A stretch of 64,000 nt of DNA from Nitrosospira sp. (GTDB lineage Bacteria > Pseudomonadota > Gammaproteobacteria > Burkholderiales > Nitrosomonadaceae): positions 1 to 64,000 of the forward strand of contig JACDGV010000002.1 of NCBI GenBank assembly GCA_013821425.1, read 5' to 3'. This document shows positions 2,689 through 63,789 of the stretch, in pieces. Position 1 is the stretch's first letter. Each line of letters starts with the position of its first letter. The translations under genes and the position numbers were made by a program. The notes beneath the pieces were generated by a model. It ran no database searches. It was given only the letters and a program-made list of their open reading frames with translations, and was not told the origin of the DNA.

Positions 2689-3858
2689 CTAGTAGCGATA
2701 AATCGCGGCCGCCCCGGTGGTTGTGGGCATCCGCTCGGACGGAACGATAACGACCTCGCCATTCGCGCGGAGAGTCATTTCCGCAAGATCGTCAAGCACG
2801 TCATCCGTGTCTGGTTCCGCCAGATCACCAAATTGAATCTCGCCGGTTTCCGGCCGAATTCGGCCAGGCAACTCTCGGTTTGCTTCGACCAGTAGCGTGC
2901 CGACTCGTCCCGCCATCGCCGCCGCCGCCACTTGGAGCAAATCGTCCGATCCAAGCTGCCGGGCCTTCGCTACCGCATAGTCATTCACCAGCTTGGCAAG
3001 GCGCTCCAGATACAGCGGCTCGACCTTGCGCCACGCCTCGGCCCGTAACTGGTCGAGGTCCAAAGCATCCGGGTTTACGTCGAGTCCCTCGGCCATCAGG
3101 TATGGGTTATGACTGATCTGTCGAAATTCACCGTGATATTCGGCGAGCGCGGCGAGCATCAGCGGCAGGCCCGACGGGCGGGAGTGGTGTTCGAGGATAC
3201 CCCGGTCGATAACCCGGAAGAACCGCTCCGCGTCGATATCGACCTCGTCTTTTTTCCCTCCGTGCCCATGATGCATCGCCGGCTCGCCGTGGGGCACGCG
3301 GGGCCTACTGCCGGCACCTTTCCCATAGGAGGCAACAGTCTGGTGCGGCTCGGTCAGTTCTTCCCCCAGCGCTTCCGTGATGGTCGAGGGCATCTCCGTC
3401 AGTTCCACGGGATCGAGGACATCGCGGTTCCCCTCGTACAGCTTGGCCGTCTCCCGGCTGAGACACAGAATCTGGTAGCGGTCGGCGGACTGGGTGATCC
3501 GGAGCAGCGGCTTGAGGTGGAAGCTATCGGCAACGACGACCAGTTCCGGCACGGGCCGCTGGAGATCGAAGACCTGGAACCTGGTGCGCGTACTGAGGAT
3601 AGCCAGCCCGTCAGTGCGGCAGTTCCAGAACCTGTCGTCCGTGGCCAGCGGCTCAAATCTTTCTAGAAGGGCGCGAACATCCTGCGCCGGGTATGTCTTG
3701 CTCAGCGACGTTTCGATTTCCCGCAAAAGGTTGCGGTAGCGTATCGGGTCCTGCTGGTTGTCGGGATGATGCCGATGAGTGGGCTGGTAAAGCGACACGC
3801 AGGGCGCCTCTTGATCGGTTAGCAGCTCAATCAGCTGATTCACGGTAAATTGACGCAT
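2689..3858 (-). CDS. baeRF-family protein (bacterial homologue of archaeo-eukaryotic release factor), family 3-like
   Basis: About 389 residues from the ATG at 3858, chosen because GGAG lies 6 nt upstream; a longer frame from 3909 would overlap the preceding gene. The N-terminal part contains LYQPTHRHHPDNQQDPIRYR, a sequence typical of baeRF family 3. A His/Lys-rich loop (HHGHGGKKDEVD, about residues 200-215) precedes the block DIDAERFFRVIDRGI and a C-terminal eRF1 domain-3-like part. These proteins are thought, from comparative genomics, to act on ribosomes, perhaps in rescue or hibernation; biochemistry is sparse. The gene directly upstream on the same strand, 37 bp away, is a hibernation factor, which supports a ribosome-linked role. 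The family assignment is from sequence memory, not a search. Confidence 0.65.
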   Translation of the reverse strand: MRQFTVNQLIELLTDQEAPCVSLYQPTHRHHPDNQQDPIRYRNLLREIETSLSKTYPAQDVRALLERFEPLATDDRFWNCRTDGLAILSTRTRFQVFDLQRPVPELVVVADSFHLKPLLRITQSADRYQILCLSRETAKLYEGNRDVLDPVELTEMPSTITEALGEELTEPHQTVASYGKGAGSRPRVPHGEPAMHHGHGGKKDEVDIDAERFFRVIDRGILEHHSRPSGLPLMLAALAEYHGEFRQISHNPYLMAEGLDVNPDALDLDQLRAEAWRKVEPLYLERLAKLVNDYAVAKARQLGSDDLLQVAAAAMAGRVGTLLVEANRELPGRIRPETGEIQFGDLAEPDTDDVLDDLAEMTLRANGEVVIVPSERMPTTTGAAAIYRY

Positions 3859-27727: not shown

Positions 27728-27819
27728 GGGGGAGCAAGATGGAGCAGGCAGCCTTCCCCATTGGAAGCAGAAGCAAACGCCACGGCCCGGTTGCAGCGAT
27801 CCTGCTCCGGGCCTTTTTC
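27728..27819 (+). ncRNA. Putative small RNA, member 1 of a two-copy family
   Basis: Expected transcript of about 90 nt, start estimated from the -10 box. A 5' hairpin pairs GGGGGAG (27729-27735) with CTTCCCC about 20-30 nt later, and the unit ends at the terminator 27784-27819. No start codon with a long frame is present. Architecture matches the unit at 62604-62682. The existence of a transcript is inferred. Confidence 0.45.
27784..27819 (+). terminator. Strong intrinsic terminator
   Basis: GGCCCGG (27784-27790) pairs with CCGGGCC (27806-27812), followed by TTTTTCTTG. The tail is identical to that of the terminator at 62648. Confidence 0.85.
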
Positions 27820-61354: not shown

Positions 61355-61394
61355 TGGTGTTAAAGATCGGATACGAAAAGGTTAAGCATTGCAC

Positions 61395-62504
61395 ATGAAA
61401 TGGCGGATAGTGGTTGCGCTATGCTTGGCTGTGATGGCGACGGGATGTAACCTGCTGCCGGAAGGCAAAAAAATAAATTACAAATCCGCGGGCAAACTGC
61501 CGCCGCTCGAAATCCCGCCCGACCTGACGGCTCCCGGTTCGGATGACCGTTATCTTGTTCCGGACATCAGCCCATCGGGCAGCGCCACATTTTCGGCCTA
61601 CAGCCAGGAGCGCAACAAGAACCCCACGAGCAGTGGGGCTACGGTTTTGCCCACGCTGGATGAGGCCGGCGTGCGCATGGAGCGTTCCGGCACGCAGCGC
61701 TGGCTGGTGGTGAAAGGCGAGCCGGATGAGGTATGGCCGGTGGTTAAGGAGTTCTGGCATGAATTGGGTTTCCTAATCAAGATAGAAATGCCGGAAGCGG
61801 GGGTAATGGAGACCGACTGGGCGGAAAACCGGGCCAAGATTCCGGAGGATATCATCCGCAACACCCTCTCGAAAATTCTGGACAGCTTATATTCAACCGC
61901 CGAGCGCGATAAGTTTCGTACGCGCTTGGAACGCGGCGAAGACGGTACCACCGAAATTTACATTAGCCACCGGGGCATGGATGAAGTGTTCGAGGGCGGC
62001 AATGTGCGAACCGTATGGCAGCCAAGACCTCCTGATCCGGATCTTGAAGCAGAGATGCTTTCCCGTCTGATGATGCGTTTTGGCGTAGCGGAAGAACGCG
62101 CCCGATCGGCGGTGGCCAGTACAGGTCCTATAGAGGAGCGCGCGCGTCTCAGCCGTGATAAGGGCGACGTCCTCACTGTGAATGAAGCCTTCGATCGCTC
62201 TTGGCGCCGTGTCGGATTGGCACTGGACCGTATCGGCTTCACGGTCGAGGATCGTAATCGCTCCCAGGGGATTTACTATGTGCGTTATATCGACCCGGAT
62301 GTAGACAGTGGGGTGGGGGGAGGTTTCCTGTCGAAACTTGCCTTCTGGCGTGACGAAACCTCTGAAAAGCCAGGTCAATACCGTATTTTGCTAAGTGAGA
62401 CGGAAGCCGGTACCGAAGTGAAAGTGCTGAACCCGGGCGGCGAGCCAGAAAAATCCAACAATGCAAACCGCATATTGAGGCTGCTCTATGAACAGTTGAA
62501 GTAA
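61395..62504 (+). CDS. bamC: Outer-membrane assembly lipoprotein BamC
   Basis: 369 residues from the ATG at 61395 (the TTG two codons earlier is less likely). MKWRIVVALCLAVMATGC is a lipoprotein signal with Cys18. LPPLEIPPDLTAPGSDDRYL is the conserved unstructured BamD-binding segment; two helix-grip domains follow (MERSGTQRWLVVKGEPDEVW and then VNEAFDRSWRRVGLALDRIG). BamC is an accessory part of the BAM complex that folds beta-barrels. C-terminus ends YEQLK. Confidence 0.93.
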   Translation: MKWRIVVALCLAVMATGCNLLPEGKKINYKSAGKLPPLEIPPDLTAPGSDDRYLVPDISPSGSATFSAYSQERNKNPTSSGATVLPTLDEAGVRMERSGTQRWLVVKGEPDEVWPVVKEFWHELGFLIKIEMPEAGVMETDWAENRAKIPEDIIRNTLSKILDSLYSTAERDKFRTRLERGEDGTTEIYISHRGMDEVFEGGNVRTVWQPRPPDPDLEAEMLSRLMMRFGVAEERARSAVASTGPIEERARLSRDKGDVLTVNEAFDRSWRRVGLALDRIGFTVEDRNRSQGIYYVRYIDPDVDSGVGGGFLSKLAFWRDETSEKPGQYRILLSETEAGTEVKVLNPGGEPEKSNNANRILRLLYEQLK

Positions 62505-62555
62505 CGGCAGGTGGAAGTTAACCGCGTCGCTGGCGTGGCAAAAGTGCCGCAAGTT

Positions 62556-62597
62556 GTACTTCAGTCCAATAGACGAGAGTTTAGAAGCGTGTAAGAT
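62556..62597 (+). promoter_or_regulatory. Palindromic operator and -10 box of small RNA unit 2
   Basis: GTACTTCAGTCC (62556-62567) followed by AATAG matches the site at 27680 in 10 of 12 positions, and TAAGAT (62592-62597) again lies 30.5 nt from its centre. Confidence 0.5.
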
Positions 62598-62603
62598 TTG
62601 TAA

Positions 62604-62682
62604 CCGGGGAAATAATTATTGTTTCTCCAATATAGCGGGTGCCTTATAGCCCGGCGCAGTCATCCTGTGCCGGGCTTTTTCT
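62604..62682 (+). ncRNA. Putative small RNA, member 2 of a two-copy family
   Basis: Expected transcript of about 80 nt. A 5' hairpin pairs GGGGAAA (62606-62612) with TTTCTCC (about 62622-62628), followed by a linker and the terminator 62648-62682. Matches the layout of the unit at 27728-27819. It begins about 100 bp after bamC and may be transcribed on its own. Inferred. Confidence 0.45.
62648..62682 (+). terminator. Strong intrinsic terminator
   Basis: AGCCCGGCGCA (62648-62658) pairs with TGTGCCGGGCT (62666-62676), one G-U pair, followed by TTTTCTTG. A group IIC intron end abuts it. Confidence 0.9.
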
Positions 62683-62683
62683 T

Positions 62684-63355
62684 GTGCGCCCAGCATGGGT
62701 GCACTCTTGCGGGTGGAAGTCCCGCCGTAAGTTGATCACAGCGAACGCAACAACTGAAGACTGAGTGGCCCAATATCCGCGAGCAGCTGCTGGCAGGGAC
62801 ATACCGGCCCAGTCCGGTACGCCGGGTAACGATCCCGAAGCCGGAGGGTGGCGAGCGCGAGCTTGGCATTCCGACGGCGACGGATCGACTGATCCAGCAG
62901 GCACTGCTACAGGTGCTGCAGCCGATTCTGGACCGCACATTTAGCGAGCACAGCTACGGCTTTCGGCCGGAACGGCGTGTACACGACGCGGTGTTAGCCG
63001 CGCAGTTGTACGTACAGTCTGGCCGGCGGGTTGTGGTGGACGTGGACCTGGAGAAATTCTTCGATCGGGTCAACCACGACATTCTGATCGACCGCCTACA
63101 CAAGCGTATCGGGGACGCCGGAGTGGTCCGGCTGATTCGGGCGTATTTGGCCCATGCCCCTGCCATGTCGCGCAGCGGGCGGCTACGAACTCGCGATGCT
63201 GGTGGCGAAACAGCAATGGTGACATCAAACGGGTACTCACCGTCGCGCACTTTGATCGCCTTGGCGTACCCCGTCTCTCATGACCTCAACTTCTCGAATC
63301 GCCCGGTGCGGACCCAATGCCGGGTGGTGTGGCAGGGGCCAGGTAGGACGCCCCC
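62684..63355 (+). mobile_element. Group IIC intron remnant (internally deleted)
   Basis: The 5' end GTGCGCCCAGCATGGGTGCA, followed by GGGTGGAAGTCCC, matches the start of group IIC intron RNA. Most of domain I is missing. A piece of the reverse transcriptase follows (62760-63160), then another deletion. The 3' end has domain V at about 63296-63330: GAATCGCCCGG ... CCGGGTGG, with the CGC catalytic triad typical of class C. A domain VI-like hairpin (AGGGGC ... GCCCCCT) ends near 63355. It lies right behind a terminator, the known target preference of class C introns. About 670 nt instead of nearly 2 kb. Confidence 0.8.
62760..63160 (+). pseudogene. Reverse transcriptase fragment of the group IIC intron
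   Basis: The frame reads EWPNIREQLLAGTYRPSPVR, then IPKPEGGERELGIPTATDRL, SEHSYGFRPERRVHDAV, VVVDVDLEKFFDRVNHDILI and LIRAYL: the fingers and early palm of group II intron reverse transcriptases, including the first catalytic Asp. The YADD catalytic loop, maturase X domain and endonuclease end are gone. Non-functional. Confidence 0.85.
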
Positions 63356-63789
63356 TAGTTCGGGGGTTCCAGCCGGGCATTCATGGTAATTTTTGCCTTT
63401 AGAACCTTCGATACGGGGCAGCCCTCTTTCGCCTTGTTCGTAATTTCCTCAAACTTGGCTTTATCCGCGCCGGGAATCCTGGCTACTACGTCAAGGTGGC
63501 TCGTGGTAATCTCAAATCCGTCACCTATTTTTTCGAGGGTGATATCCACATGGGTTTCGATTCGCTCCGGCGTGAGGCCGGATTCTTCCAGCATTAAGGA
63601 AAGGGCCATCGAAAAACAGCCGGCGTGGGCGGCTCCTATCAATTCCTCCGGGTTGGTGCCTTTGCCATTTTCAAACCGTGAGTTGAAACCGTAAGGGGCT
63701 TCGCTAAGCACTCCCGTTTCGGTGGAAATCGTGCCGCCGCCATCCTTGATGCCGCCCTTCCAGACTGCCCATGCTTTCTTTGTGCTCAT
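63355..63789 (-). CDS. OsmC-type organic hydroperoxide reductase
   Basis: 144 residues; AAGGAG sits 5 nt before the ATG. Both catalytic Cys residues are present: AAHAGCFSMALSLMLE and KEGCPVSKVLKA. The start KKAWAVWKGGIKDGGGTIST matches OsmC rather than Ohr. It reduces organic peroxides, protecting under osmotic or oxidative stress. The intron's 3' end touches its stop codon. Confidence 0.93.
   Translation of the reverse strand: MSTKKAWAVWKGGIKDGGGTISTETGVLSEAPYGFNSRFENGKGTNPEELIGAAHAGCFSMALSLMLEESGLTPERIETHVDITLEKIGDGFEITTSHLDVVARIPGADKAKFEEITNKAKEGCPVSKVLKAKITMNARLEPPN

Follow-up and report, generated by a model that had tools for sequence, protein, structure and literature searches.

Introduction

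What is the DNA that lies between a Rho-independent terminator and an osmC-like gene in this stretch of a Nitrosospira genome, and is it still capable of anything? In the window, by which we mean the whole stretch of 64,000 nt that was analysed, the locus lies between a bamC-like gene upstream (61389-62504, an NlpB/DapX lipoprotein) and, on the opposite strand downstream, the osmC-like gene (63355-63789, − strand; OsmC Pfam E 1.2e-20). A sequence-only reading of the window had proposed that 62684-63355 is a decayed group IIC intron lodged behind the terminator. Passages of PMC4424553 describe IIC introns as inserting at intrinsic terminators and most bacterial copies as truncated or inactivated; parts of PMC8919778 show that bacterial-C introns favour terminators in a large number of genomes, and sections of PMC3522654 likewise describe class C introns in this position. 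The decay of class C introns is documented in parts of PMC4424553 and of PMC3522654, the latter describing fragments of So.gl.I1 and a cycle of extinction and recolonisation. In the literature on group II introns and Nitrosospira, we found no paper on the subject, as judged by title.

The proposal was borne out by the relatives of the element, a covariance model, the class of its reverse transcriptase (RT) and the hairpins in the flanks of its family. The stretch 62684-63357 (+ strand) is almost certainly left over from a class C (group IIC) intron of about 1855 nt, of which it retains 674 nt; the proposed start was correct and the proposed end was not, since recognisable intron sequence runs on to 63357. 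The remnant is a broken, ordinary genomic fossil of a well-known kind, in the usual landing place behind a terminator.

Relatives, 5′ end and class of the intron

A distant blastn search of plasmid records yielded 379 with a match, in nine of which 80% or more of the query matched at a single place. Among the plasmid matches listed, the top bit score belonged to plasmid p1 of Cupriavidus pinatubonensis (NZ_CP080768.1; locus L132, 1501-3355). A scan of genome contigs with the RT piece of the window confirmed at least 292 relatives, and 80 of these loci, together with five plasmid loci from the 379 records, make up the 85 that were examined. Searched by nhmmer with the two ends of L132, most of the 85 contained both ends. 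Full-length references of 1756-1884 nt were provided by 63 of them, with a match starting at position 1 or 2 of the 5′ end; their 5′ ends are alike, and the 63 are not all independent, L014 and L132 being the same element and several others coming from one genome.

L132 resembles the window copy in its 5′ end, RT segments, RT C-terminus and domain V, sits behind a hairpin and T tract, and is 83% identical where the two align. Unlike the window copy of only 674 nt, it is 1855 nt long and encodes an annotated RT/maturase of 455 aa. A second copy in the same genome (L088, C24:229382-230992) also lies behind a hairpin and is 95% identical to the window copy at the 5′ end and 90% in the 3′ part, but it retains the greater part of the ribozyme and has a better domain V, while its RT is broken by stops, frameshifts and a gap.

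The 5′ end of the intron, GTGCGCCCAGCATGGG, begins at 62684. This start of domain I (62684-62744, + strand) is 95% identical over 64 nt both to the second copy and to L132 (intron positions 1-64), and is recognisable, as the sequence-only reading had claimed. Group II introns begin with the consensus GUGYG, and the GTGCG at 62684 is an end of this type that is common to the full-length relatives. The RT fragment recognised in the same reading is equally real: at 62765-63149 (+ strand), corresponding to L132 intron positions 664-1048, lies the part of an RT that precedes the YADD box, with RVT_1 and TIGR04416 matches (Pfam RVT_1, E 5.4e-10; NCBIfam group II RT/maturase, E 8.1e-27).

The assignment to class C is supported by the RT scores, by the CGC triad of domain V and by the terminator targeting of the family. 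Among solved structures, the RT of L132 came nearest to the GsI-IIC RT (433.7 bits), with which its 455 aa align through the last residue, the part in which an endonuclease domain would be sought not being kept in the window; 7uim, 5hhj and 5hhl, which we take to be group IIC, scored 268-323 bits, 6me0, presumably group IIB, 140.4 bits, and LtrA, presumably group IIA, 136.7 bits. The 80-aa RT piece of the window showed a similar picture, with 92 bits for GsI-IIC, 65.5-66.6 for 7uim, 5hhj and 5hhl, 27.7 for LtrA and 22.1 for 6me0.

Internal deletions

According to the sequence-only reading, two internal deletions had taken the YADD box and most of domain I. Both are present, and a third loss, affecting domain VI and the 3′ end, had been overlooked. 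To map the joints, we used a jump alignment, each jump being charged a fixed cost, against 64 references made up of the 63 full-length loci and the second copy L088; this placed the joints at 62739-62763 and 63140-63187. Pairwise alignment with almost free gap extension was dropped, as it left the deletions scattered.

Of the 66 jump positions at joint 1, 37 fall at 62750. The joint zone (62745-62764, + strand) marks the loss of about 582 nt (583 nt when measured against L132), which took the RT N-terminus and the bulk of domains I-IV; the stretches of L132 that match Rfam domain I-IV fall within this loss. Part of the 20 nt in the zone is unassignable, these bases fitting several references, and a possible microhomology was seen there with L132.

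Joint 2 required two jumps instead of one in many references. In its zone (63145-63166, + strand) about 586 nt are missing (586 nt against L132), equivalent to RT residues ~218-416 including YADD, and the reading frame shifts across it. The RT pieces correspond to family residues up to 217 and, in a different frame, to residues 417-454, and therefore YADD and most of the thumb have been lost. The C-terminal end of the RT follows at 63164-63283 (+ strand), with residues 417-454 at 63164-63277 and a TGA stop at 63281-63283. A 5′-truncated insertion was also considered and rejected, because the element has kept its 5′ end as well as domains V-VI, the large losses being internal.

Domains V and VI and the 3′ end

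An Rfam search of the window gave no match at the gathering level, and the one sub-threshold match to D1D4-4 (17 bits, E 0.41) is not evidence. Because Rfam was silent at gathering and gave only weak matches at E up to 5, we built a covariance model of the family (R1) from an alignment of 31 of the 59 distinct 3′ ends of relatives. In the 64-kb window, R1 identified domains V and VI at 63292-63364 (40.1 bits, E 1.5e-7), a match that covers the interval 63296-63330 in which a class C domain V had been predicted; the next-best match reached 8.6 bits (E 3.6). Run on the whole genome with a limit of E 1, the model found two places, namely the window and the second copy (C24:230913-230992, 83.4 bits).

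Domain V itself, as located by the R1 match, folds and alignment, occupies 63298-63328 (+ strand). Its CGC triad at 63300-63302, which had been noticed from the sequence, pairs with GTG at 63324-63326 (numbered on the fold), and these CGC/GUG pairs are invariant in 31 of 31 aligned relatives. Passages of PMC4424553 mention a CGC triad in some introns. For 11 of the 28 base pairs predicted in domains V and VI, the alignment of 31 relatives contains one or more two-sided changes. The upper helix in the window copy is damaged: compared with the common form, its domain V is one base short and deviates at two further positions; its fold has a loop of 11 nt, whereas the domain V of L132 forms the upper helix too. 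In the window copy, neither domain V nor the stretch of V and VI folds clearly better than shuffled sequences (z −1.05 for domain V; z 0.66 for V and VI).

Domain VI survives as a shortened remnant at 63334-63357 (+ strand), with nine jump positions at 63337-63339. Recognisable intron stops in CCCCCTA at 63357, and the 3′ end of the relatives (mostly GCCGAT or CCCGAT, and TGCCGAT in most) is absent after this point. With the boundary itself lost, the 3′ joint can be placed only approximately. Group II introns end in a sequence of the AY type; the missing end is a matter of decay, and counts against activity, not against descent.

Terminator targeting

The terminator that forms the 5′ exon and insertion target (62648-62683, + strand) consists of a 12-bp hairpin, with a hairpin score of 32, followed by the remainder of TTTTTCTT; folded over 62640-62683, the stem-loop has an energy of −24.6 kcal/mol (z −5.5). 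Its T5 run ends at 62680 and is followed by CTT before the intron starts at 62684, so that the insertion lies 3 nt past the run and not 2 nt, as had been thought. The terminator at 27784-27819 carries the same TTTTTCTTG tail and no intron, just as the sequence-only reading had stated.

The preference of class C introns for the 3′ side of terminators, which that reading had invoked, is plain in the family as a whole: of 70 family flanks, 62 had a strong hairpin, compared with 1.9% of the 1807 controls. The flanks were distinct 60-nt sequences directly upstream of those of the 85 loci that had an unambiguous 5′ end preceded by 60 or more bases (71, less one duplicate), the mark being a hairpin score of at least 22 at the right distance; controls were taken further upstream in the same loci. 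Two of the 70 flanks (L045:5045 and L069:3166) partly show another intron end and not host sequence. In the host family, the same mark was passed by 17 of 20 copies, the window included; these are 20 of the 21 copies with a 5′-end match, and two pairs, being apparently shared old insertions, are not independent. Eight of the 70 family flanks and three of the 20 host-family copies fell below the mark. At L045, the introns at 3189 and 5045 appear to stand in tandem, the second 5′ end directly following the 3′ end of the first intron.

The empty site and osmC

Searching 22 other genomes of the genus, we inspected 10 loci around osmC. One genome, G022, provides an empty orthologous site: its similarity to the upstream unit extends through 62687 of the window and its similarity to osmC resumes at 63367, and in G022 the two matching stretches are separated by 11 nt, without an intron. 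In G022, the bases past the insertion point happen to start GTGC, and the 5′ boundary in the window is therefore placed by the relatives and not by the empty site alone. The upstream unit was present in eight of the 10 loci, none of which had the window intron directly behind it; in three (G018, G012 and G013) other sequence lies between the unit and osmC, and in G016 and G009 no upstream unit was found near osmC. The unit (62554-62683), a putative small RNA in the sequence-only reading, combines the terminator with a GTAAGAT-like box and a conserved GTACTTCAGTCCAATAGG-like motif, and is also seen at L112, L122-L127 and L129. A DNA search of the window's own genome found a single copy of it at a convincing E-value.

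The stop codon of osmC (TAG, 63357-63355) is the reverse complement of the last CTA of the remnant and thus lies within the intron-derived CCCCCTA. OsmC here ends E-P-P-N, while eight orthologues, read by eye in eight of the 10 loci fetched (G022, G018, G020, G021, G017, G001, G016 and G009), stop either at the same E or one residue beyond it. The last deletion probably took the former stop of osmC with it. At the joint of intron and osmC, 63346-63370 (CCCCCTAGTTCGGGGG) is a small inverted repeat (fold z −2.8) without a T tract.

Discussion

The history that we infer for this locus would begin with a mobile class C intron that retro-inserted 3′ of the Rho-independent terminator between the bamC-like gene and osmC, presumably by reverse splicing followed by reverse transcription. 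After insertion, the element would have died through the deletion of about 582 nt of ribozyme core and RT N-terminus and of about 586 nt of the catalytic and thumb regions of the RT. A small further deletion would have truncated domain VI and cost the element its 3′ splice end, and osmC probably its original stop. Judged on its sequence, the remnant should be incapable of splicing or moving, and is most likely without any function.

Could it instead be a short, ORF-less intron that is still active, splicing or moving by means of an RT supplied in trans from another copy? The retained 5′ end and the domain V with its triad would suit such an element, but the YADD region is deleted, the frame is changed and domain I is mostly gone, the Rfam domain I-IV model giving 108 bits in L132 and nothing at gathering in the window. 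Furthermore, the upper helix of domain V is damaged, the TGCCGAT end is lost and no intact RT of the same family was found in the window's own genome, which leaves this explanation next to no probability. That the intron belongs to another class and lies behind a terminator by chance is extremely unlikely. The class of the window copy does rest partly on its relatives; those relatives, however, have invariant triad pairs in 31 of 31 cases and strong hairpins in 62 of 70 flanks, and the RT is nearest to IIC RTs among solved structures.

A third alternative is that selection has kept the dead intron, for example as the source of the osmC stop codon or as a hairpin behind osmC. The osmC TAG does lie inside the remnant, and 63346-63370 is able to form a hairpin. 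Against this, no T tract follows that hairpin on the osmC strand, the eight OsmC orthologues end at the matching E or one residue later with no remnant to help them, and no intron match was seen at the site in the other genus genomes inspected; we regard retention by selection as very unlikely. As a decayed class C intron, the locus extends the record of terminator-targeting introns by one fossil that is well mapped and can be compared with full-length relatives, a further broken copy and an empty site; it raises no new question.

A published parallel is provided by the So.gl.I1 fragments of Sodalis glossinidius, which, in the relevant sections of PMC3522654, are likewise inactivated pieces, in a bacterial chromosome, of a class C intron that targets terminators; they concern another host and another intron, and are likened here by description, not by sequence. 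The window's intron lineage looks extinct in the sampled genomes of the host family, because no match of at least 60% identity spans more than 244 of the 455 RT residues in any of the 61 genomes and the copies are incomplete, although copies may be missing or collapsed in draft assemblies. No intact RT of this intron family was found in these 61 genomes, and in the window's own genome the RVT_1 matches are three pieces, all within the two broken copies. A match of 36% identity with a long open frame in G041 belongs to another RT. By blastn coverage, the most complete of the 20 host-family copies is L088, with 1604 of 1855 positions (596 in the window), some of the 20 stopping at contig ends. 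This apparent extinction agrees with the picture of extinction and recolonisation drawn in the sections of PMC3522654 cited above.

Across the 61 host-family genomes, the intron 5′ end was matched 21 times and the 3′ end 10 times (queries of 110 and 112 bases), a difference that may be bias, as the two queries differ in conservation. The idea that terminator-side 5′ stubs are preferentially kept in the host family, favoured beside terminators and not decaying neutrally, has very little probability in our estimation. Among these copies, the intron stubs L116 and L118 (in G001 and G020) and L120 and L121 (in G021 and G017) stand behind nearly identical flanks, which suggests that they are old, inherited fragments; by eye, these flanks resemble the ends of 5S rRNA and tRNA genes.
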